44,349 bases of DNA from contig JANQSY010000006.1 of assembly GCA_028279065.1 (NCBI GenBank), positions 1 to 44,349 on the forward strand, given 5' to 3'. The notes beneath the pieces are model-generated. The model saw only the letters and a list, made by a program, of their open reading frames with translations, searched no databases and had not been told where the DNA came from. Position numbers and translations under genes: made by a program. Source of the DNA: Cytophagales bacterium (lineage in GTDB: Bacteria; Bacteroidota; Bacteroidia; Cytophagales; CCMP332). Positions 6,977-41,165 of this stretch are shown one piece after another; the stretch's first letter is position 1; each line of letters begins with the position of its first letter.

Positions 6977-8364
6977 TAAATAAGAACCAAATCTGGCTTG
7001 GGGGAATAATTCTAACCTGTGCAACTTATCTAGGGCTTGGGATCCAGGAAGGTCATGATTGGGGTGGAGATTTTGCCATGTATATTGCTCAAGCGAAGGC
7101 TTTAACCCAGGGGGGATTGAGGGATCTCTACCTTTCAAATGCCTTTGCAACAAACAATTCTATCCATCCTTTTGGGCCGCTCCTTTATCCCTTTGGTTAC
7201 CCTATACTACTTGCTCCAATTTATGCAATACTGGGCCTGAATTTTATTGGTTTCAAGATTTACACCTCACTATTTGCCATTCTTTCAATACCCGTTCTTT
7301 TTAAAGTCTTCAAGCCCTTTTTCCAAAACCAGATCTTTACATTTTGCCTCATCGCCTGTATTGTACTAAATGCTGGCTTTACAAAATCATCAGATCAGAT
7401 CTTCTCGGATCTACCTTATTTCTTCTTCAGTTTTTTAGCCCTTTCATACTTCAAAAGGGAGCATTCACTAAGCGAGGGGATTATTATAGGGTGCCTGATA
7501 TTTTTTTCCTATCTGATCAGAGATGTTGGTCTTTTTCTTTTACCAGCTTTATTGGTATTTCAACTGATCTCAAAAGAAGGAAAATCCAGGTTTGAGAGAA
7601 TTCTTGACCTTAGGACATGGGTTCCATTTGGAGTATTCCTTTCTGCCTATCTGTTGAAGTTCCTTATTCTTCTTAATTATCCTGCCAACCATTTAAACAG
7701 ATTAACAGAAGGCCTATCCTTGGGTTCAATTTTTTCCAACCTTGTTTTCTATGAAGACCTGGTATCCTCGTTCATGTTTACTTGGGATACTCCTTCTTTT
7801 TCGTTGATCCTGTTTTTCATCGGGCTTGCCATCATTGGGGTTTCGACTTGCTGGAAGGAAACAGTTCATTTCCTTTTATATGCTCTTTTGGTGGCAGTGA
7901 TAATAATCATTTGGCCTCATAAGCAAGGTGAAAGGTTTTGGTACCCCGTCCTACCGATCTTTTTCTTTTTCATACTAAAGGGAGTAGAGATCATTGGAAG
8001 CAAAAAGCCAAAATTGGCCTTTTCCGGGGTGGTTTTCATTTTGCTTTGGACCGGGATCATTGCTGTAAAAGGAGGAATAGAATCTTTTAAAAGGAATAAG
8101 ATCCCAACAAACCAGGCCTATACCGTGGAAATGAAGGATCATTATAACTATATAACCAAGAATATCTCCGAAAACGAACCTGTTCTTTTCTTTAAACCAA
8201 GAGTTCTAAGGTTTTTCACGAAAAGGAATAGTCATTTTGTTCCGGTTGATAGTTATGAAAATACGGATACAAGATATTTCCTGTTACCCAGGAAAGATGA
8301 GTTTCAAAGTGGGGAAATAATCTATTCAACAGAAAGATTCCGATTATGGCGATCAAAAAAATGA
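6973..8364 (+). CDS. GT-C family membrane glycosyltransferase (GT39-like)
   Basis: A 463-residue polytopic membrane protein of the ArnT/PMT-like GT-C type, which transfers sugars from polyprenyl-phosphate carriers on the outer face of the inner membrane. It has an N-terminal membrane helix, then a first outer loop with an acidic motif (DWGGDFAMYIAQAKAL) where GT-C enzymes hold their catalytic acid, then FGPLLYPFGYPILLAP and about ten further hydrophobic helices, and a ~90-residue soluble C-terminal tail. A paralog lies at 30626-32059. The start is TTG, overlapping the ltaE stop (TTGA); no ATG is available. Acceptor and sugar cannot be inferred. There is no ligase or wzx-like gene nearby. Confidence 0.78.
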   Translation: MINKNQIWLGGIILTCATYLGLGIQEGHDWGGDFAMYIAQAKALTQGGLRDLYLSNAFATNNSIHPFGPLLYPFGYPILLAPIYAILGLNFIGFKIYTSLFAILSIPVLFKVFKPFFQNQIFTFCLIACIVLNAGFTKSSDQIFSDLPYFFFSFLALSYFKREHSLSEGIIIGCLIFFSYLIRDVGLFLLPALLVFQLISKEGKSRFERILDLRTWVPFGVFLSAYLLKFLILLNYPANHLNRLTEGLSLGSIFSNLVFYEDLVSSFMFTWDTPSFSLILFFIGLAIIGVSTCWKETVHFLLYALLVAVIIIIWPHKQGERFWYPVLPIFFFFILKGVEIIGSKKPKLAFSGVVFILLWTGIIAVKGGIESFKRNKIPTNQAYTVEMKDHYNYITKNISENEPVLFFKPRVLRFFTKRNSHFVPVDSYENTDTRYFLLPRKDEFQSGEIIYSTERFRLWRSKK

Positions 8365-8506
8365 TCGACTGCCTCCAGCGTTCTATGTTTTCCTAGCAGG
8401 GGAATACAAGGGGATTATCAAGGACAAAAACAAGAGCGGAAGGTTTCAAAGGCAAAATTGAAACAATTCACAGGAGAAGAGGTCGTTTTATACCAAAGCG
8501 TTCATT
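8365..8506 (+). other. Intergenic spacer with an open 45-codon frame lacking a start codon
   Basis: There is no recognised gene in this 142 nt gap. One frame is open from inside the end of the glycosyltransferase gene to a TGA near 8461 and reads protein-like (RLPPAFYVFLAGEYKG, then a basic tail) but has no ATG, GTG or TTG in a sensible place. It could be a decayed gene end or chance. AGGAGAAGAGG near 8472-8482 is purine-rich but lies about 25 nt before the tonB ATG, too far for a normal ribosome site. Confidence 0.25.
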
Positions 8507-9283
8507 ATGATTGGCTTACTGATCCTTGCATTGACCTTTCTTTTCTCCGCCATAATTCTTCTTAGGATTTATTCGAGGCGACAACTAAAACATCTAGCCC
8601 AAAAGCCAGACATTAGAAAACAAAAAAATAGATTTCGGAAAACCCGAAGTGTTCTAATATGGAACATTTCTATATGTATTTCCTTGTTGACTGTTTTCTC
8701 GGGCTTTGAATGGAAAACATACGGACCAAATGATCCTCTGGATTTTAATGATGAATCCGATAGGATCTTCGAAGAATATACTGTTCCTCCAATAACGGAA
8801 ATTGATGCACCCCCGAAACCCAAAAAAGTAAAAAAGATCGAAGTTCCAGGGCCAGAAATAAGGGAGATCGAATCAGAAATAGAAGAAAGTACGGAACCGA
8901 TCCACGAGCCGGTTCCAACAAAACCAGGGGTGATCATTGAGGACCCCCCAGAGGAGGAAATAGAGGTTCCTTTTGTACTGGTACCTGAGGTTCAACCTGA
9001 ACCTGCCGGAGGTATCCAGAGTTGGGTCAAGTTTTTATCCAGAAACATAAGGTATCCCAGGGAGGCAAAACGAAGAGGCGTGGAAGGAAAGGTTTTCGTA
9101 GAGTTCATCATCGGCGCAGATGGAAAGATCCGGGATTGTAAGATCATCAAGGGAATCGGTTCTGGCTGCGATGAGGAAGCTATAAGGGTTTTGAAAAAAG
9201 CCCCAAAATGGAATCCCGGGCTCCAAAGGGGCCGGCCAGTACCGGTAAAAGTTATTATGCCCATAAACTTTAAATTGGGTTAG
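8507..9283 (+). CDS. tonB: TonB family energy transducer with an extra N-terminal membrane helix
   Basis: A 258-residue inner-membrane protein that couples the proton-motive force to TonB-dependent outer-membrane transport. The C-terminal domain (~165-258) has the family pattern: a RYPREAKRRGVEGKVFVEFIIGADG segment, then EEAIRVLKKAPKWNPGLQRGRPVPVKVIMPINF. A Pro/Glu-rich periplasm-spanning stretch covers ~85-160. Bacteroidota TonBs normally begin just before the helix ending FEWKTYGP (here ~49-68). This protein has an additional hydrophobic segment at residues 2-20, giving two predicted membrane helices. No later Met exists to remove it. No exbB/exbD genes are nearby. Confidence 0.88.
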   Translation: MIGLLILALTFLFSAIILLRIYSRRQLKHLAQKPDIRKQKNRFRKTRSVLIWNISICISLLTVFSGFEWKTYGPNDPLDFNDESDRIFEEYTVPPITEIDAPPKPKKVKKIEVPGPEIREIESEIEESTEPIHEPVPTKPGVIIEDPPEEEIEVPFVLVPEVQPEPAGGIQSWVKFLSRNIRYPREAKRRGVEGKVFVEFIIGADGKIRDCKIIKGIGSGCDEEAIRVLKKAPKWNPGLQRGRPVPVKVIMPINFKLG

Positions 9284-30625: not shown

Positions 30626-32059
30626 TCATTTTGGGTCAATAGTAAACAGGAACCATTTTTCCCCTCGACCTATCAATGTAAATTCATCATCATCCTGATT
30701 CGGGTTGTAACCATGAGAAACACCTGATAAAAAGAGATAATATTTTGACCCTGAGTGCAGAATCTCCTCTCTTTCAACTATCACATATGAATTCGTTCCC
30801 GTAGCAAATCTGAGGTATCTGGGACTGGCGAAGATCAAGGAAAAGTCCGGAGGATCAAGCTTTTCGATCTCAGAAAACATTAAGATAATATCTGGATCAC
30901 CGGTGAATGTCGATGCATTTTTGACATAGGCCTTGGTTTGGTCCCTTGCAACGACAACTGTTGAACCTGCCCAAATTGTCAACACCAATCCAAAAACTAT
31001 TGAAACTTTTCTCCAAGGAAGGTTTTGAGTGGCTGAAAAGAGGAGATATACCAGAAAGGGTAAAACCGGGATGAAAAATCTGGTTCCCTGACGATAGGAT
31101 GATGGCCAAATAAGAATAACCGCGATTTGGAGGAGGCAAAATATCAAAACGGGAAGGTCCTTTCTCCAATTCTTAATTGATTGAAAAAGCACCAATCCGA
31201 GGGAAACGAACAAAATTGACCAAATTGAATATCTCCCAATCCAATCAATAATGGGTTTCAAGGATACTCTGAAAAAATTTTTAAAGGTTTCAATAACATG
31301 GGAATAGTTCAGGAGCAGAATCTCACCATCAATCTCAAGAATCCGATTCATATGTACTCCTCCTTCGAACGGCGAAAAAAGCAGCTTACCAATAAACAAT
31401 ATTGAAAAAGGCACTACTATGGAAGCGAGGCGGATAATTCCTTCCTTCTTCATCAGAATTATAACTGCAAATGCCGGGACCAAGAACATGCCAATGTCCC
31501 TGGTCAAATAAGCCAAAAAGGATAAGATGCTAATTCCGATTAATCCGCGAAAAGTCTTACAACCATCAAATAAATAGAAGCTCAAGGTTACCAGGAAGAG
31601 AAAAAAATATTCAGAGTTCAAGTGGTCAACCAATGTGAGGTTAAACGAATGAAAACCAACAACAACAGAACCCAGGAAAGGAATTATTAGTGCATTCTGC
31701 CTCTTTGCCCACCACAGAAAAAAAAGAAAATAAGAGGCCGCTAAGAATACAAGATTGTAATACTTCAGGGCAATAAAATCCCGCCCGAATACAGCGACAG
31801 CCGGAGCAAGGGCAAAAGGAAATCCCATTGGGTATAGATAAGGGCCATATTCGGAATAGGACCTGTCCATGCACTCTTTGTTCAATGCATAAAAAGTGGA
31901 AATTTCACCCCGGATCAAGTACTCGGCCTGTTCTAGGTAAACCGAAGAGTCAGTCCACCATTTTAGGTCATCCTTAACCCTTGCAGTGGCAATAAGATAC
32001 AATCCTACCAACAAGATGATCCCGAGCAAAAAGATCTTCCAGTTGCCAAGTTTGCTCAT
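30626..32059 (-). CDS. GT-C family membrane glycosyltransferase (paralog)
   Basis: A 477-residue polytopic membrane protein and evident paralog of the gene at 6973-8364: WTDSSVYLEQAEYLIRG matches DFAMYIAQAKALTQGG, and YGPYLYPMGFPFALAPAVAV matches FGPLLYPFGYPILLAP. An N-terminal helix, the acidic first loop, about ten more helices and a soluble C-terminal tail are seen. GT-C enzymes use polyprenyl-phosphate sugars outside the inner membrane. It starts with ATG 24 nt after plsY. It is the last gene before the terminator at 30422-30454. Acceptor unknown. Confidence 0.75.
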   Translation of the reverse strand: MSKLGNWKIFLLGIILLVGLYLIATARVKDDLKWWTDSSVYLEQAEYLIRGEISTFYALNKECMDRSYSEYGPYLYPMGFPFALAPAVAVFGRDFIALKYYNLVFLAASYFLFFLWWAKRQNALIIPFLGSVVVGFHSFNLTLVDHLNSEYFFLFLVTLSFYLFDGCKTFRGLIGISILSFLAYLTRDIGMFLVPAFAVIILMKKEGIIRLASIVVPFSILFIGKLLFSPFEGGVHMNRILEIDGEILLLNYSHVIETFKNFFRVSLKPIIDWIGRYSIWSILFVSLGLVLFQSIKNWRKDLPVLIFCLLQIAVILIWPSSYRQGTRFFIPVLPFLVYLLFSATQNLPWRKVSIVFGLVLTIWAGSTVVVARDQTKAYVKNASTFTGDPDIILMFSEIEKLDPPDFSLIFASPRYLRFATGTNSYVIVEREEILHSGSKYYLFLSGVSHGYNPNQDDDEFTLIGRGEKWFLFTIDPK

Positions 32060-32083: not shown

Positions 32084-32731
32084 CTAATTTCTTCTTCTGA
32101 TCCTAATATTGGCTTTGCTTTCCTGACCCTTGATCAATCTTCGAATATTTTTTTGATGAGTAAAAACAACCACCCCGAACATAAGAAAGCCGAAAATAAT
32201 GAGTGCTGGTTCTTCAGGATTGAATTTTGGAAGAAGCAGTAGAATTGGAAAACATAAGGTGCCGATCATTGAACCCAGGGAGACAAACCTTGATGTCAAA
32301 AGGACTATGATAAAGATCATCAGGCAAAGGAGAGCGACGATCGGATGTATGGCCAAAACCATTCCAAACAAGGTAGCGATCCCCTTTCCTCCCCTAAACT
32401 GACTGAAGACAGGGAAAACGTGCCCGACCACAGAAAACAATCCAAAAAGAAGCTGATAAAGGATTACATCGTCATAGGGAACAGCATTGATTGAGACCAA
32501 TACCCAGGGAAGAGTCGCAGCTGTATAACCTTTTACAAGGTCCATAAGCATCACAAGGACGCCCCACTTCTTTCCTAAAACTCTGAAGGTATTTGTGGCA
32601 CCAGCATTACCGGAACCATAATCCCGAATATCAATTCCAAAAAAAGCTTGACCAACCCAAACGGCACTGGGAATTGACCCGAATAAATAGGCTGCAATAC
32701 AACCTGCTAATATGTAGGCAAGAGTCTCCAC
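32084..32731 (-). CDS. plsY: Acyl-phosphate glycerol-3-phosphate acyltransferase PlsY
   Basis: A 215-residue inner-membrane enzyme that acylates glycerol-3-phosphate from acyl-phosphate, the first step in phospholipid synthesis with PlsX. The family motifs are present: YLFGSIPSAVWVGQ, DIRDYGSGNAGATNTFRVLG at ~34-53, DLVKGYTA, and HVFPVFSQFRGGKGIATLFG. Five or more membrane helices are evident. The start is GTG at 32731, the only reasonable position before the first helix. It follows the giant protein gene by 51 nt. The 3' neighbour is a membrane glycosyltransferase. Confidence 0.94.
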   Translation of the reverse strand: METLAYILAGCIAAYLFGSIPSAVWVGQAFFGIDIRDYGSGNAGATNTFRVLGKKWGVLVMLMDLVKGYTAATLPWVLVSINAVPYDDVILYQLLFGLFSVVGHVFPVFSQFRGGKGIATLFGMVLAIHPIVALLCLMIFIIVLLTSRFVSLGSMIGTLCFPILLLLPKFNPEEPALIIFGFLMFGVVVFTHQKNIRRLIKGQESKANIRIRRRN

Positions 32732-32782
32732 GGATCACTTGATCAGGCATGCAAAATTAAGAATTTTAAGGATTCGGCTGGT

Positions 32783-35700
32783 TTATGGTCTAAATCCGTC
32801 GTCATCATCATCTCCCCAATCATCCTCTTCTACATCTTCCGGAACAACAATGGGCTTCTTCTTGTCATCCTTTTTCTTCTTTTTGTCGTCTTCCTTTTTA
32901 GGGTCTTTCTCTTTGTCTTCCTTTTTTGCTTCTTCCTTTTTAGGGTCCTCTACCTTTTCTTCTTTTTTGACTTCCTCCTCTTTTTTAGGTTCCTCTTCAG
33001 GTTTGGAAATGATCACAGGCTTTTCCTCCTCATCTTCTTCACCCCAGCCATCATCCCAACTATCTTCCTCATCTTCCTCAGGAACCACGATCGGATCCGA
33101 TTTTTGTTCCTCCTCTTTTTTGGGCTCCTCTTTGACTGGTTCTTCTTTTACCGGATCCTCTTTTGGTTTTGAAATAATTACTGGCTTCTCCTCTTCATCC
33201 TCTTCACCCCAATCATCTCCGCCCCAACTGTCCTCTTCGTCATCCTCAGGAATAACAATCGCTTTCTTTTCTTCCTTCTTTTCATCTTCCTCGAAGAAAT
33301 CATCTTTTTCAATTACCTCTTCTTTTGGTTCTTCCTTTTCCTCTTTTGGTTGGGATATTATTATTGGCGCCTCCTCCTCAATTTCTTCTTCATCATCTAG
33401 GTATTCCTCTTCATATAGGTCCTTATTTTTCTCCGCTTCCTTTGCTTCCTCTTTTGGCTGTGTTATTATCACAGGTTTTTCTTCTTCATCTTCCTCTCCC
33501 CAGTCGTCACCACCCCAGCTATCCTCCTCATCATCTTCCGGAACGATGATTGCCTTTGTCTCTTCTTCTTGCTTGTTGATCATTATCGGATCCTCCTCTT
33601 CGATTTCTTCTTCTTCATCAAGATATTCCTCTTCATATAGATCCTTGTTTTTCTCCGCTTCCTTTGCTTCCTCTTTGGGCTGAGAAATAATCACTGGTTT
33701 TTCTTCTTCATCTTCCTCTCCCCAGTCGTCGCCACCCCAACTATCTTCTTCATCATCTTCGGGAACGACAATTGGCTTTGTCTCTTCTTCTTTTTGCTTG
33801 TTGATTATTACCGGAGCCTCCTCTTCATCTTCCTCAAATCCAAAAGGATCCACAACCTCCTCCTCATCTTTTTCCTGAACTTCTTCTTTTTTATTGATTA
33901 TCACAGGAGCATCCTCTTCGTCTTCTTCAAAGCTGAAAGGATCATCCTCTTCCTCTTGCTGCTTTTGCCCACCAATTATTGCAGGTTCTTCTTCCTTATC
34001 CTCTCCCCAGTCATCATCCCAGGTATCTTCCTGAACAGGATAATAATCCTCTTCCTTGGGTTTCTTCTCCTTTTTTTCTTTTGGTTCTCGTTGCTTTTTC
34101 TCCTTTTTCTTCTTTTCCTTTTTTGAAGGAGGAGGCGCACCATAATAGTCGTCATATCCGGATTCCTCCTCAGCACCCCAGCCATCATCTTCCTCATCTG
34201 CGCCCCAACCATCGTTTTCTTCCTCATCTGCGCTCCAACCATCATCATCTTCAATTTCAGTATCTTCTACCGGCTTTTCGACCTCAGAAGATTCTCCAGC
34301 CTGGCCTGCAGCAGCACCTGCAGCAGCTCCACCAACAACCGGGATCTCAGATTCATCCTCTTCCGTTTCGTCCCCCCAACCATCATCATCGCCAAATTCG
34401 TCATCAGCCCAATCATCATCTCCATTCCATTCGTCATCGTAATAATCGTCATCGTAATCCTTTTCCTTTTTCTGATCAGCCATAATACCGGATTCAAGTT
34501 CAGGCTGCTTGACCTTCAGGTCCAGATCATCTTCGGTGATATTGTTGTTGAGATAGGTATTGTTGAAATGAGTGATGTATTCCAAGACCTCATATTGGGT
34601 GGCCAAAGCAAGTTCAATTTCGCCTTCTTTGACGGCCCCATCGCTCTGTTTTCCCTGTATAATGTCGTTATAGACATAATTGGAAGAGAATGTCCTCATG
34701 ATACCATCAGCATAGGATAAATAATACCAGGAATCGTCCATGAGACCCACGTAAAAGTTAACCGTAGAGCCGTTATACCCCTTCCTGATCTCCAGATACG
34801 TGTTGACTCTGGAGTTAATGTCGTTTTTAAGTATCGATGCAAGGCCGATAGTGTCATAATTGTAAAAAGCATTTTCATCTTTATGCCACGCGAATTTCAG
34901 ATCAGCCAAGAGAATCCCTTTCGCCAATTTGGGACTGGCCATGAACAAAGGCAGGTACTCCATGTAGAGCTGTTCTTCAAAATTGTCTGCTCCGGTTTCT
35001 CCAAGGAATTGTGCGAGGCGATTATACTGAATACCAGGATCAGCTAGTGCTTCATAGAGATCCACATATTCAGTGCTTTCGGAGAGTTCCTTGCCCATTT
35101 CGTTCAGGGCTGAATTCGGGATGGGGAAATTCAAAATGGATAGGGTTTGGAAGGTGTAATTCGCACTATCGATGTTAGCCCTTCCCTCACCTACAGACAC
35201 CATATCCATGAATTCATCTCCTGCAAAGGAAAACTCCCCTTCAAACTCAATATTAGAAAGTGAATCATCGTAGGTAAATAGATTACCTTCAATTGTTCCC
35301 TCTTCTATTTTCTTTCTGTCCCCCATTTCAAATTTCCCTTCTTCAGGGTTTACCCCGAGAAGACCCAATGATTTGAAAACATCGTCGTCTTCATCAAAGC
35401 GCTTTGCTGAAAGGAAGGTGTAGTAAAGCTCCTCTTCGGCAGGATCATAGTGTAAGCCAGTGGTCAGATACAGGGCTTCATCTTCCTCATTCTTGGGCTC
35501 TTCAATTTCAATGACAATATCATTTGGGTCACTGCTCCACTTGAACGGCAACCAATCATTGAACTCATCCGAATGCCTGAGGTCAAGCCTTATCTCACCA
35601 TCAAATCGGAGGAATTCTTCATTCGCATATACATCAACTGCCCCCTGAAAAATGATCTTTGGAGATATATAAAAATTGTCTTCGGGGAATATCTCACTGA

Positions 35701-38700
35701 GGCCAATGGTGACCGTATCAATTTCCTTCCTCTTAAAGCCGGTTTGCTCCTGGTGCAGACCTTCAAAGATGACATCCATGGTATCTCCTGATCCATTGTC
35801 GTATTTATAAATGGCATCGGCATCAAACTCTTTCGCGGAGAAGATCTCAACGCTTGCGTCGGTCAGGTAATGATACTGCCAATCATAATCCATTATAATG
35901 CTTGCATCTTCCAGTGGCTCGATCTCCCCTTCCTCAGATATAATCAATTCTCCATCACCCGGAATGATATTGGCATCAGCAACATAGATATTCGGAACAC
36001 CTGAGGCGTTGAGTCTGCCGGACTCCACGTCATAAACCGCTGAATCTGCACTAAAAGCTAAAGAATCAAGTTCAGGGTTTGTGGAATAGAAATATGAGTC
36101 CTCTATATCGATCTCATTCGGTTTGGACATCGTGAACATATGCGTTTCCAGATCCCACACTCCAACAGGAATAGAGGTCTTCATCTGAAGAATTGGCATT
36201 TCGAGTGAGGCTGCACCCTTTTCCGGTTCAACCCTTGCTGTGTTCTCCAGGAAATCAAAGGTCATTTTTACATCCACCGCCATTAAGCCTGGAAGTCGGC
36301 TGTAGTCGGTCTCCAATTTGAACTTGGAGTTGTGCCCAACGAAACTATGTTCTTCGAACAAATAATTTTTGGAGAAGGTCTTTGTGGAGGTCGTTTCCAC
36401 TATCCCCCTTCCCTTCATCCCGGAGGTGGTTACGATCCCTGTTCCGTCAAGCATTGCTATCCCATCATACAATTCGATCTCCTCCTTCTTGCTTCGAACA
36501 AATAGTTCTTGGGTCTTAGGTTTAAAAGCCGCAGTGAAATCACTGGTCGTCTTTGCATGAGGAAAGGAAATACCATCAAAATCACCCTGGGCCACTTCAA
36601 ATTCCCCATTATTAATGAACATGGAGTCTTGATAGAACACGAAGGTGTCGCTGTCAACCAATGCGGCCATGAAGGTCAGGAATCCTGTGGCTTGCAGGCC
36701 ACCCCGATCCAGAGATAGATTTTCATAGATCTTCGCCGAACTTCCATAGATCTCAAAGCCATCATCGGGGATCTCATAATCAAATCCAAGGGAGAGGTCT
36801 GGCATAACCACCAACTTGGTCTCAATATCCGGGATCATTCCACCTGAGTGGAATACCCCCTCTAAATGGACAACATTGGGATTATCACTCTCTACGGAAT
36901 CGATCCTAAAACTGGGGATCTCAAAATAAACCTCCTTGTTGTAAGTCCCGCCCAATACATTTGGTCCATCGAAATAGACATAGGTAGGTGACGAGATATC
37001 GAGTATTGGATATTGAGGAAGACTTTTAAGACCGGATTTATTATCGATCTCGTTCAGGTAAAGAGTGCCGGCCGTATTTTTTATGGAACCACCAAGGATC
37101 TGCTGAGAAGAAGTCTGTCCTGTAGAATCATCAGAAATAGTAAAGTTGATCGAATCCAGGTGATTGATCTTGAAAAGGAAACTATTATAGTTAAAATCAA
37201 AATCCTTACCCACGATCTCATAGTTACCTGCTATCACCCTTCCATCGAAGGTAAAGTCCCTGCCCTTATAGATCTTAACAAGCCCGCTATCAGGCATAAA
37301 ATAAACACCGAGGCCCTTGGAAACGATCTCCCGATGAACTCCATAAACATAAAAGATACCTGAATCAAGGTCGATGTAGCCGTTGCGTCCTGTGGGTACG
37401 ACACTATAGATCTCCAGGTTATCATAGTCCTCTTTCCTATGTCTGGATTTGAAAGAGTGCTTGGTCTTTTTGGTTACAGTGATCTCACCCGTGAACCTAT
37501 CAAAATCAATATATCCTTTACCTGCGATCCCAACCATTGCCCCCAGGACAATTTTGGGATCCTTCTTATACCTTGATGCTACTTCCCGATAATTAAAACT
37601 GGTAAGCTTCTTTTTCTTCGAGTAATCATAGACCATATTTATCGGATTGAAGCCATATAGACTTCTCATCCTGTCATACTCCTGATCATCAAAAATTTCG
37701 TCGGAACGCACCTTCATGGGTGCTTCAGACCTTCCGGACATTATTCCGAAATGGACCTGGTTATCCCCGAGAGTATACCATACCTTATCTCCAACAATCT
37801 CAAGACGATGGTAAGAATCCATCATTGGAAGATACTTGTTCGGGCCTCCGGGCCAATACAATTTTATCGTAAGATCATCCAGCCCATATTCAAATTCCAT
37901 CTCCTTGTGTGTAAGGGAATCTTCAAACAGATAGAATTTCACATTTGCCTTCTTTGCTCTTACCACAGAATCGATGAGGTAATATCTTTTCGAACTGGAG
38001 ACAAGGACTGTTTTGCCTTCATAGCTGACCTTCATTTCACTGGGCATTCCATTCATTGAAGCTGAATGGATGGTCTTTCCTACGAGGTTGAACCCTCCTT
38101 TGAAATCAACTTCATCGCTTATGGTCTTATACTGATAGTTGCTGCCATATGAATGGAATCTTGGATATTTCTTACCACCCTTTTTCTTTCCAATCGATTT
38201 AAATGTATAAACCCCTTCAATCGGATCATCAAAGAATTCCGGGTAGTTGATCTTAGAATTCTCTGAAGAAAACCCGGGCCTGGAGACAGGGAATTCATAG
38301 TTCCCAAGCTCAACATAAACATCTTCCTCAAATCCATGCTTCTCCCAGTTCATCGTTCCGCCAGAGCCTGAATACCTTTTTTGAAATACACCAAGATTTC
38401 CACTAGTCCCCAAAATTGAGGTGGTGTCATAAGGAGTCTCGATTAGAAAATCCGCATCTTCAATTACGATCTTTGGCCCAGTATATTGGATCGCTTCTTC
38501 TTCATCGGAGCCAAAATCCAGGATATTGACATCCGATTCGTCATAGTTAGCATCGCTTTCATTATCATCATAATCCTCCCAAAAACTATCATCATCATAG
38601 TCTGCATCATCCCCCCAAACATCATCCTCAAAATCTTCATTGAACGTGGTATCATCATCTGCAACCTGCTCTTCTTCATAATCCTCCAAAAGCATATCCG

Positions 38701-39229
38701 GTGCGTAATCCGATTTATCCTCTTCATAGGCAATGGAAATACTCCCTGTTTCCATTATTACCTTGGAATTTTTCCCATAGAAAAGGGCGTTGTACTTGAA
38801 AAGATTAGTACAGGTTTTGAAGAATTGGAGGATCCTAGGACCTGATGTACTTGTCCTTACGATTTCTTTCGTGGCACCAAGGAACTCTGAAACTCGCTCG
38901 GATGAGGTATGGTCACCATTGTTGATATAGTAAAGGGCTCTTGTAAAGGATGAAAGGTAAGGCCTAACTCCCATTCTCCTGTGAAGCATGGTTTCGACCA
39001 CTTCTTTTGCCAATTCCTGCTGTTCCGTGGATAAGTCAAACCAAGAAGCAGAGAGGTCAAAGCCATTGGTATCGATAGCTCCACTCCTCCTCAGAATATC
39101 ATCGGCGTAATCAGGATAGTCTAATTCTTCTTGCTCCTGGACCCCCAAGGAGTCACCGAAACCCTGCGAATAGGAGTTATTGGCCAAAAAGACCAACAAG
39201 AAAAACGCTATGATTGACCTCCAAAACAC
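32783..39229 (-). CDS. Giant secreted protein with acidic Trp-containing repeats, unknown function
   Basis: A 2148-residue protein that I do not recognise. A signal peptide (residues 1-21, ending SYSQ) implies export. Residues ~25-175 are helical; ~180-250 form a first acidic, Trp-bearing segment (EDDVWGDDADYDDD). Residues ~250-1570 are beta-rich with recurring 'D/Y-x-x-S/T-G-x-f-x-x-x-G' strands, e.g. DLDSGIFYVYG and YDVESGRLNASGVPNIYVADANI, the latter reminiscent of OstA/LptA-like beta repeats. From ~1580 to the end it is extremely acidic and lysine-rich, with WG/DDWG motifs and near-identical 74-residue tandem units. No C-terminal T9SS sorting domain is seen; it ends DDDDGFRP. The start is GTG immediately after the prmA stop. 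No frameshift is evident. Confidence 0.88.
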   Translation of the reverse strand: MFWRSIIAFFLLVFLANNSYSQGFGDSLGVQEQEELDYPDYADDILRRSGAIDTNGFDLSASWFDLSTEQQELAKEVVETMLHRRMGVRPYLSSFTRALYYINNGDHTSSERVSEFLGATKEIVRTSTSGPRILQFFKTCTNLFKYNALFYGKNSKVIMETGSISIAYEEDKSDYAPDMLLEDYEEEQVADDDTTFNEDFEDDVWGDDADYDDDSFWEDYDDNESDANYDESDVNILDFGSDEEEAIQYTGPKIVIEDADFLIETPYDTTSILGTSGNLGVFQKRYSGSGGTMNWEKHGFEEDVYVELGNYEFPVSRPGFSSENSKINYPEFFDDPIEGVYTFKSIGKKKGGKKYPRFHSYGSNYQYKTISDEVDFKGGFNLVGKTIHSASMNGMPSEMKVSYEGKTVLVSSSKRYYLIDSVVRAKKANVKFYLFEDSLTHKEMEFEYGLDDLTIKLYWPGGPNKYLPMMDSYHRLEIVGDKVWYTLGDNQVHFGIMSGRSEAPMKVRSDEIFDDQEYDRMRSLYGFNPINMVYDYSKKKKLTSFNYREVASRYKKDPKIVLGAMVGIAGKGYIDFDRFTGEITVTKKTKHSFKSRHRKEDYDNLEIYSVVPTGRNGYIDLDSGIFYVYGVHREIVSKGLGVYFMPDSGLVKIYKGRDFTFDGRVIAGNYEIVGKDFDFNYNSFLFKINHLDSINFTISDDSTGQTSSQQILGGSIKNTAGTLYLNEIDNKSGLKSLPQYPILDISSPTYVYFDGPNVLGGTYNKEVYFEIPSFRIDSVESDNPNVVHLEGVFHSGGMIPDIETKLVVMPDLSLGFDYEIPDDGFEIYGSSAKIYENLSLDRGGLQATGFLTFMAALVDSDTFVFYQDSMFINNGEFEVAQGDFDGISFPHAKTTSDFTAAFKPKTQELFVRSKKEEIELYDGIAMLDGTGIVTTSGMKGRGIVETTSTKTFSKNYLFEEHSFVGHNSKFKLETDYSRLPGLMAVDVKMTFDFLENTARVEPEKGAASLEMPILQMKTSIPVGVWDLETHMFTMSKPNEIDIEDSYFYSTNPELDSLAFSADSAVYDVESGRLNASGVPNIYVADANIIPGDGELIISEEGEIEPLEDASIIMDYDWQYHYLTDASVEIFSAKEFDADAIYKYDNGSGDTMDVIFEGLHQEQTGFKRKEIDTVTIGLSEIFPEDNFYISPKIIFQGAVDVYANEEFLRFDGEIRLDLRHSDEFNDWLPFKWSSDPNDIVIEIEEPKNEEDEALYLTTGLHYDPAEEELYYTFLSAKRFDEDDDVFKSLGLLGVNPEEGKFEMGDRKKIEEGTIEGNLFTYDDSLSNIEFEGEFSFAGDEFMDMVSVGEGRANIDSANYTFQTLSILNFPIPNSALNEMGKELSESTEYVDLYEALADPGIQYNRLAQFLGETGADNFEEQLYMEYLPLFMASPKLAKGILLADLKFAWHKDENAFYNYDTIGLASILKNDINSRVNTYLEIRKGYNGSTVNFYVGLMDDSWYYLSYADGIMRTFSSNYVYNDIIQGKQSDGAVKEGEIELALATQYEVLEYITHFNNTYLNNNITEDDLDLKVKQPELESGIMADQKKEKDYDDDYYDDEWNGDDDWADDEFGDDDGWGDETEEDESEIPVVGGAAAGAAAGQAGESSEVEKPVEDTEIEDDDGWSADEEENDGWGADEEDDGWGAEEESGYDDYYGAPPPSKKEKKKKEKKQREPKEKKEKKPKEEDYYPVQEDTWDDDWGEDKEEEPAIIGGQKQQEEEDDPFSFEEDEEDAPVIINKKEEVQEKDEEEVVDPFGFEEDEEEAPVIINKQKEEETKPIVVPEDDEEDSWGGDDWGEEDEEEKPVIISQPKEEAKEAEKNKDLYEEEYLDEEEEIEEEDPIMINKQEEETKAIIVPEDDEEDSWGGDDWGEEDEEEKPVIITQPKEEAKEAEKNKDLYEEEYLDDEEEIEEEAPIIISQPKEEKEEPKEEVIEKDDFFEEDEKKEEKKAIVIPEDDEEDSWGGDDWGEEDEEEKPVIISKPKEDPVKEEPVKEEPKKEEEQKSDPIVVPEEDEEDSWDDGWGEEDEEEKPVIISKPEEEPKKEEEVKKEEKVEDPKKEEAKKEDKEKDPKKEDDKKKKKDDKKKPIVVPEDVEEDDWGDDDDDGFRP
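33351..33790 (-). repeat. Tandem 222-bp coding repeats (74 residues each)
   Basis: Two nearly identical units lie in the tail of the giant gene; the landmark CAGTCGTC occurs at 33501 and 33723, exactly 222 nt apart. Each encodes PEDDEEDSWGGDDWGEEDEE, then EKPVII, a KEEAKEAEKNKDLYEEEYLD block and an INKQ/ISQP-type linker. Shorter degenerate copies of the PEDDEEDSWGGDDWG motif recur nearer the C-terminus, around 33208-33262, 33042-33093 and 32801-32855. Boundaries are approximate. Confidence 0.85.
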
Positions 39230-40081
39230 TTAAAGGTTTTTAAACGATAAGCAAGCCCAATTGTTCCTTAAACCCTGATTTACAGGAGTTAATCCCAAAT
39301 TCCTGCAAAACCCGACCATTGAATTAACGTCTTCTTTCAAGAAACCGCTTACAATCAAAAGCCCACTATGCCTTAAATAATTCAAATATACGGGAATATC
39401 CTCTAGCAATTGGTTCTTTGTAATGTTGGCAATTACAATATCAAACGATTGATTTTCAGCAATTAATGCGCCAGAATCTCCAAATTTGATTTCGATTTTG
39501 GAGCATTGGTTCAATTCGGCGTTCTCTTTTGAATTCGCGACCGCCTTTTCATCATTATCAATTGCCAGAACCCTCCTTGAGCCCATTTTTTCACAAATGA
39601 TCGATAGAATGCCTGTCCCACAACCCATATCCAGAACGGATTTCCCCTCCAATTCAAGACCCAGGAGTTCGTTTGCGCATAAAAAAGTGGTTTGATGGTG
39701 GCCAGTACCGAAAGCCATTTTTGGAGAGATAATGACCTCCATTTTGAAAGCTTCATCCGGTTCATGAAAAGGAGCCCTGATCCTTAAGCTATCTCCAATA
39801 ACTATATCGGAAAATTCTGATTCCCACACGTCATTCCAGTTTTTTTGCTCCATAGGAGCAACTTTTAACAGTATATTCTTTCCCAAATTGTAGGAGTTCA
39901 AAACCTCAATAAGCCTCTCCTTTGAATAGGTCTTGGATGGAATATATCCGATGAGTCGATCCCCGTTCTCCCAAATCGAATCAAAACCCAGTTGATCCAT
40001 ACCAGCAATGATCAGGTCATTCTGGGCAGGGATAGATCTAAGCCATACTTCGAGGTATTCCGTTTTCAGGGGGACTGACAT
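39230..40081 (-). CDS. prmA: Ribosomal protein L11 methyltransferase
   Basis: A 283-residue class I SAM methyltransferase that trimethylates ribosomal protein L11. The N-terminal substrate domain contains NWNDVWESEFSDIVIGDSLRIRAPFH; the SAM-binding part has the family signature MAFGTGHHQTTFLC, VLDMGCGTGILSI and DIVIANITKNQLLEDIP. Length and motifs are standard. The ATG at 40081 overlaps the previous gene by 16 nt, and its TAA is followed without a gap by the GTG of the giant gene, so all appear to be one operon. Confidence 0.95.
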   Translation of the reverse strand: MSVPLKTEYLEVWLRSIPAQNDLIIAGMDQLGFDSIWENGDRLIGYIPSKTYSKERLIEVLNSYNLGKNILLKVAPMEQKNWNDVWESEFSDIVIGDSLRIRAPFHEPDEAFKMEVIISPKMAFGTGHHQTTFLCANELLGLELEGKSVLDMGCGTGILSIICEKMGSRRVLAIDNDEKAVANSKENAELNQCSKIEIKFGDSGALIAENQSFDIVIANITKNQLLEDIPVYLNYLRHSGLLIVSGFLKEDVNSMVGFCRNLGLTPVNQGLRNNWACLSFKNL

Positions 40082-40404
40082 CCGGCAAAGGATTCAGTTT
40101 CAGTGTAATACATCTTAAAGTGGGCATAGCCCCGCTCCTTTTCTTTGAAAAGGATAAAGTCCGCCAAGGCCGGGGAATCAACTATATGCCACAGGCCAGC
40201 CCTATCAGCAAAAACCCTACTATCCACAGGAAATACCAGTAGATCTGCAAAGGCTTCAGATTCCTCAAGGTAAAATGTAAACTCTGCCTGGCTACGGACC
40301 TCCGTTATAAAGATGTTTCCCATTATTCTGCAATGGATGTCAGTTTGGGCAAACGCTAATTGCCCAAACAAGAAGAATAAGAACATGCAGAGGGTCTTTT
40401 TCAA
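40066..40404 (-). CDS. Small secreted repeat protein, DUF6150-like
   Basis: A 112-residue exported protein with signal peptide MKKTLCMFLFFLFGQLAFAQ. The mature part repeats a ~15-residue unit: EAFADLLVFPVDSRVFADR, SPALADFILFKEKERGYAHF, and KMYYTETESFAGC, alternating short strands with 'SxxFADxxxY/F' turns. From memory this resembles DUF6150, a small Bacteroidota family, but I am not certain. Two Cys in the mature part (near residues 25 and 109) might pair. The TTG at 40404 overlaps the tpiA stop as TTGA; the alternative ATG at residue 7 would shorten the signal peptide. Function unknown. Confidence 0.75.
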   Translation of the reverse strand: MKKTLCMFLFFLFGQLAFAQTDIHCRIMGNIFITEVRSQAEFTFYLEESEAFADLLVFPVDSRVFADRAGLWHIVDSPALADFILFKEKERGYAHFKMYYTETESFAGCQSP

Positions 40405-41165
40405 AACGATTTTGCTATATCGACAAATGATCTGGCTTTTAACGATGCTCCCCCAATCAAACCCCCGTCAACATCCTCACAGGAAAACAGATCAGGAGCA
40501 TTTTCAGCGTTACAACTTCCTCCATAGAGTATGGTTATGTTCGCAGCGATTTCCTTTCCTTTTTCATTGGAAATGAAGTTTCTGATCTCTTTATGCACTT
40601 CCTGTGCCTGCTCCGGGCTTGCCGTCCTTCCCGTTCCAATTGCCCAAATAGGTTCATAGGCGATCAAGGTATTTTGAAGATCATTATCACTCAGATGACT
40701 GACCCCATTTGAAATTTGATCCGAAACGTACTCCAAGTGTTTTCCGGAATCCCTTATCTCAAGTGGTTCCCCGCAACAAAAAATTGGTGTCATTCCATTT
40801 TCCAAAACCGCATCAACCTTCTTTTTTACCAAATCATCGACTTCACCAAATAACATCCTTCTTTCGCTATGACCAACAATCACATAATCCACTCCCATTT
40901 CAGCCAACATGGCTGTGGCCACTTCACCTGTATAGGCACCCTTGGGTTCCGGGTAGGAATTCTGGGCACCTATTTTCAATGGACTATCCTTTGAAACCAT
41001 CCGTCGAAGGGGGTTGATATATACCAACGGAGGGCAAATGATGGTCCTAACCGAAGAATCGACTTCATCCTTGACCATATTTTCGATTTCAGAGCATAGC
41101 TTGTAGGCCTCCTCCGGTTGCTGGTTCATTTTCCAATTGCCCGCTGCTGTGTTGATTCTTGCCAT
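40401..41165 (-). CDS. tpiA: Triosephosphate isomerase
   Basis: A 254-residue glycolytic TIM-barrel enzyme interconverting dihydroxyacetone phosphate and glyceraldehyde-3-phosphate. The catalytic residues are visible: N10/K12 in AGNWKMN, H99 in VIVGHSERR and E171 in AYEPIWAIGTG, with phosphate-loop ILYGGSCNAEN and GGLIGGASL at the C-terminus. It heads the run tpiA, DUF6150-like, prmA and giant gene, each overlapping or abutting the next. It diverges from hflX with 58 nt between the starts. Confidence 0.97.
   Translation of the reverse strand: MARINTAAGNWKMNQQPEEAYKLCSEIENMVKDEVDSSVRTIICPPLVYINPLRRMVSKDSPLKIGAQNSYPEPKGAYTGEVATAMLAEMGVDYVIVGHSERRMLFGEVDDLVKKKVDAVLENGMTPIFCCGEPLEIRDSGKHLEYVSDQISNGVSHLSDNDLQNTLIAYEPIWAIGTGRTASPEQAQEVHKEIRNFISNEKGKEIAANITILYGGSCNAENAPDLFSCEDVDGGLIGGASLKARSFVDIAKSF

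Follow-up and report, generated by a model that had tools for sequence, protein, structure and literature searches.

The window analysed here, a stretch of 44,349 nucleotides of DNA from a Cytophagales bacterium, encodes a 2148-residue protein (referred to as the giant) that represents a real, class-wide and hitherto undescribed family of envelope proteins. A preliminary description, made from the sequence alone, held that the protein fits no family, and this stands: searches of Pfam, NCBIfam and PDB sequences with the giant gave 0 matches each, and no published description of the family was found in the open-access literature searched. Homologues of 1500–2150 aa (24–76% identity) are present in 166 of 194 sampled Cytophagales genomes, nearly always in single copy, as in the source genome, and a profile of 21 bodies detected the giant in 324/395 genomes and 160/197 genera across the class, Bacteroidia. 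These counts rule out an orphan or chance ORF. A sample of the phylum (395 genomes, mostly very complete) yielded 14 matches, every one inside the class. Genera bearing the giant include Fulvivirga, Pontibacter, Rufibacter, Hymenobacter, Rhodocytophaga, Nafulsella and Sporocytophaga, and it also occurs in Chitinophagales and Flavobacteriales MAGs; the closest relative lies on a MAG contig of 'Cytophagales bacterium PL24a_bin.2' (L146) and is 75% identical. Several genomes with two or more matches proved to reflect a contig break or a single gene in fragments. The sole clear duplication seen is a pair of tandem full-length giants in genome G596 (C42:308196-316768), with one in-frame stop per match.

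The ORF opens with a GTG on the base right after the TAA stop of prmA, bearing out the gene boundaries in Table 1. Its hydrophobic N-terminus, which ends ..SYSQ and forms a helix at residues 2–21 in the AlphaFold2 (AF2) model, agrees with the signal peptide proposed at the outset; Q22 is nearly invariant across the family as an AQ/SQ/GQ cleavage-like site, matching expectation for a cleaved Bacteroidota signal peptide. The C-terminus is a disordered acidic tail with no Pfam or NCBIfam match to a T9SS C-terminal sorting domain. A promoter and terminator scan of the locus performed no better than on shuffled sequence. On the opposite strand, a 314-aa Ser/Phe-rich ORF at 32739-33683 (+) is mere antisense of the acidic tail and not a gene.

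Table 1. Features of the giant and its neighbours, in window coordinates.
Feature	Coordinates	Strand	Basis
Giant gene, 2148 aa	32783..39229	(-)	ORF calling and homologue searches
Signal peptide, residues 1–21, cut before Q22	39167..39229	(-)	predicted from motif
N-terminal helical domain, residues 38–146	38792..39118	(-)	AF2 helices
Disordered acidic Trp loop, residues 173–245, length varying among relatives	38495..38713	(-)	pLDDT <50 at 173–238
Beta body part 1, residues 251–513	37691..38479	(-)	AF2; conserved; Lpt matches begin only near residue 472
Inserted winged-helix domain, residues 514–600	37430..37690	(-)	VIA structural comparison
Beta body part 2, residues 601–1240, LptA/LptC/LptD-like jellyroll segments (best about 827–1087)	35510..37429	(-)	AF2, structural comparison
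C-terminal conserved alpha/beta domain, residues 1241–1565	34535..35509	(-)	AF2, conservation
Lineage-specific acidic/lysine tail, residues 1591–2148, repeated EDSWGGDDWGEEDEEEKPVI units (222-bp DNA repeat)	32786..34459	(-)	
Near-C-terminal DDDGF peptide, followed by RP in the source protein	32792..32806	(-)	conserved C-terminal [DE]G[FWY] in relatives
prmA, upstream neighbour	39230..40081	(-)	conserved in 63/67 loci
DUF6150 protein	40066..40404	(-)	
tpiA	40401..41165	(-)	
plsY (G3P acyltransferase), downstream neighbour	32084..32731	(-)	conserved in about half of loci

Only residues 1–1565 of the giant are conserved, and the preliminary description did not set the tail apart from them; occupancy across 41 relatives is ∼0.93 or more at residues 251–1550 and 0.07–0.27 in the tail. 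AF2 models were obtained from 37 natural relatives in two overlapping parts, residues 1–880 (mean pLDDT 81) and 700–1590 (mean pLDDT 86). These confirm that the body is beta-rich, with ∼79 strands predicted in residues 251–509 and 606–1239. LptA has 16 strands; if stacked continuously, the strands of the giant would correspond to roughly five LptA lengths. The AF2 models gave no assignable beta-barrel or transmembrane anchor; OmpF-type matches at Z about 5 and those LptD alignments with r.m.s.d. >30 Å were not counted in favour of a C-terminal barrel. In search of internal repeats, a profile comparison of two segments matched them only where they overlap. The small acidic tryptophan segment first noticed near the N-terminus is also present (about residues 165–250; 44% D+E, net charge -37).

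The preliminary description further likened the body to OstA/LptA repeats, a likeness that parts of the body bear out in fold (VIA Z 9–11) but that has no sequence-profile match behind it. Residues ∼827–1087 aligned with the LptD N-domain at Z 10–11 (132–150 residues, about 3.7–4.5 Å) and with LptC at Z 8–9 (120–137 residues, about 2.6–2.9 Å), while LptA aligned with residues 922–1051 at Z 9.7 (120 residues, 2.8 Å). Further upstream, LptC matched residues 475–698 at Z 9.3, and LptC and LptD gave Z 9 across 472–780. For each half of the giant, Foldseek ranked LptD chains first or close to first; several high-ranked LptD rows owed their rank to alignments with r.m.s.d. >30 Å and were left out of the evidence. 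Residues 251–470 and 1087–1565 had no reliable Lpt structural match, and no fold could be assigned to the C-terminal domain or to what remains of the beta body. The fold evidence makes it likely that parts of the body are Lpt-type jellyroll, although Z 9–11 over 120–150 residues is a match of fold, not of function. Searches with 21 relatives likewise returned no Lpt family, and hhalign of the giant gave Prob 0.7 against an OstA_2 set and 0.2 against an LptD set. The OstA_2–LptD control was itself negative (6.8), so this test is weak and says little on common ancestry.

Inserted into the body is a winged helix, which resembles many wHTH chains (VIA Z up to 9.9; 2.7 Å over 83 residues) and for which relatives of the giant show weak wHTH family matches. 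The helix in the recognition position (558–570, DPKIVLGAMVGIA) contains a single basic residue, making DNA binding unlikely.

The giant appears to be an additional Lpt-fold protein rather than the LPS bridge itself. The source genome has separate OstA_2/LptA, LptC, LptD and LptF/G genes, and OstA_2 was found in 39/39 genomes, including the source (G000) and three that lack the giant (G022, G035 and G038). Since dedicated LptA/C/D/FG genes coexist with the giant, the LPS bridge in the strict sense that had been speculated on is unlikely. An accessory LPS bridge that assists canonical Lpt where the periplasm is longer or the LPS takes a special form would fit with LptA/C/D being the nearest folds. 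This is however the least probable of the alternatives we considered, since all giant-lacking genomes tested keep LptA-like OstA_2, LptC, LptD and LptFG unchanged, and there is no lpt linkage at the loci examined, which were compared with the window genes only.

We tentatively favour an Lpt-like protein of a single chain that would act as a second bridge across the envelope, or as a lipid carrier, with a cargo other than bulk LPS, a reading we put a little short of even odds. The Lpt fold in parts of the body, the signal peptide and the class-wide single copy point, with the same reserve, in this direction. The giant would then be a periplasmic single chain built on an extended Lpt-type beta-jellyroll, whose putative hydrophobic groove could carry lipid or lipidated cargo between the inner and outer membranes. 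Membrane partners may dock on the helical N-domain, on the winged helix and on the C-terminal domain.

A rather unlikely alternative is that the jellyroll is a rod that provides length without transport, the giant being a periplasmic scaffold or spacer that tethers the outer membrane to peptidoglycan or to the inner membrane. Its great length, its signal peptide, the lack of an assigned membrane segment, the strongly acidic tails and loops and its dispensability in some lineages are all consistent with such a role. Against this, the nearest PDB folds are lipid-carrying Lpt proteins, a Pfam scan found no peptidoglycan-binding domain and the family has neither a conserved Cys nor a lipobox motif.

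The acidic, lysine-rich tail with DDWG motifs is as originally described: residues 1591–2148 are 43% D+E with 17 Trp and a net charge of -167, and contain 19 acid-WG motifs where 2000 same-residue shuffles gave 0.7 on average (maximum 8). In relatives, however, a median of just 30 residues follows position 1565, and most have little or no tail; the core function can therefore not reside there, and the tail was rejected in that role. The earlier suggestion of a calcium- or cation-dependent scaffold is left unsupported, resting as it would on a tail that most relatives lack. Between sister genomes the tail is 61% identical and the body 76%, indicating faster divergence of the tail.

What is more widely retained is the extreme C-terminus. 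In a set of 107 relatives (108 distinct sequences minus one unrelated ORF), 67 end in [DE]G[FWY] and two more, including the source protein, carry it within four residues of the end. The motif is missing from non-Cytophagales members. Among other ORFs >300 codons in the fetched loci, none has a [DE][DE]G[FW] end, bar one giant fragment. We infer that the terminal D-G-F could be a docking peptide, carried on the acidic segment as a flexible linker.

This aromatic peptide would also suit a TamB-like assembly factor or chaperone for outer-membrane proteins, in which clients are bound by strand augmentation along the jellyroll edge and D-G-F docks on the assembly machine. The TAM of Bacteroidota, in which TamL replaces TamA, is central to outer-membrane homeostasis, and its TamB has a beta-taco body (PMC12045153). 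We consider this role improbable, however, because Pfam finds no TamB or AsmA domain in the giant, its hhalign score against TamB (Prob 1.0, from the same weak test as above) amounts to no profile match and a separate TamB gene is present in all genomes tested. Replacement of the giant by a second TamB was also rejected. In a comparison of TamB copies across 54 genomes, two TamB genes occurred in 17/23 giant-lacking and 7/29 giant-bearing genomes (p 0.0006), but the association vanished within the order (2/4 versus 6/13, p 1.0) and so probably reflects lineage and genome size. AsmA (PF05170) showed no clear link with presence of the giant.

The position of the gene in an operon with tpiA and plsY, abutting prmA, was proposed early on and is well supported. 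All of these genes lie on the minus strand; tpiA and the DUF6150 gene overlap by 4 bp, and the DUF6150 gene and prmA by 16 bp, as expected for an operon, and plsY starts 51 bp downstream of the giant. The DUF6150 gene, which overlaps both its neighbours, is retained in many relatives. Of 67 named loci whose upstream sequence was long enough, 63 have prmA as the immediate upstream neighbour of the giant on the same strand, and plsY lies <2 kb downstream in 35/64 loci. The order tpiA-prmA-giant-plsY is common to Cytophagales, Chitinophagales MAGs and Flavobacteriales MAGs. This retained context, along with the signal peptide and the class-wide single copy, agrees with the constitutive envelope component first envisaged, and the plsY/tpiA neighbourhood is weakly consistent with lipid metabolism. 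After plsY lies a 477-aa multi-membrane protein (30626-32059, minus strand) that has no Pfam match and by eye resembles a membrane glycosyltransferase.

The giant is absent from 1-Mb reduced genomes (family f21), from two genera of family f19, represented by at least four complete genomes, and from sampled members of families f23, f24, f25, f26, f30 and f31; f26 may be Flavobacteriaceae, given how abundant it is among the sampled genomes and that a short ORF the size of ClpS follows prmA. Family f19 has genera that are close relatives yet differ in whether they carry the giant (g33 and g65 versus g20, g47 and g71). Genomes without the giant retain prmA, often with tpiA, and at one locus (L232) PrmA (7190-7996) is followed directly by PlsY (8065-8709), an arrangement that fits the giant having dropped cleanly out of an ancestral cluster. 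Complete genomes without it keep full Lpt sets, showing that the giant is dispensable in those lineages. That it is an ancestral single-chain intermembrane lipid bridge of Bacteroidia that is distinct from the Lpt, Tam/AsmA and Mla systems and has been lost in several lineages, is a broader claim that we regard as possible but doubtful. The loss lineages appear to include common laboratory models, which, if the bridge reading is true, would explain why the giant went unnoticed, and the want of a family entry is probably due to its loss from the best-studied lineages. The giant is thus an example of a core gene left without such an entry. The route by which phospholipids and other lipids arrive at the outer membrane is an open question, the machinery of Bacteroidota is in part different, and the giant is an unannotated, directly testable candidate for a missing envelope component.

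Among known systems, the giant shares with LptA, LptC and the N-terminal jellyroll of LptD (PF03968, PF06835; OstA_2, PF13100) the fold of parts of its body and its export, but it has no sequence similarity to them, is several-fold longer in a single chain, contains an inserted winged helix and coexists with true LptA/C/D. Proteins of the TamB/AsmA superfamily (PF04357, PF05170), which have been proposed to span the periplasm (PMC12045153), are likewise very large, exported and beta-rich. The giant has no profile match to these, its N-terminus looks more like a cleaved signal peptide than an anchor, and it occurs beside a separate TamB. Finally, its winged helix has the fold of MarR/Rio2-type domains but, in contrast to these, sits inside an exported protein.
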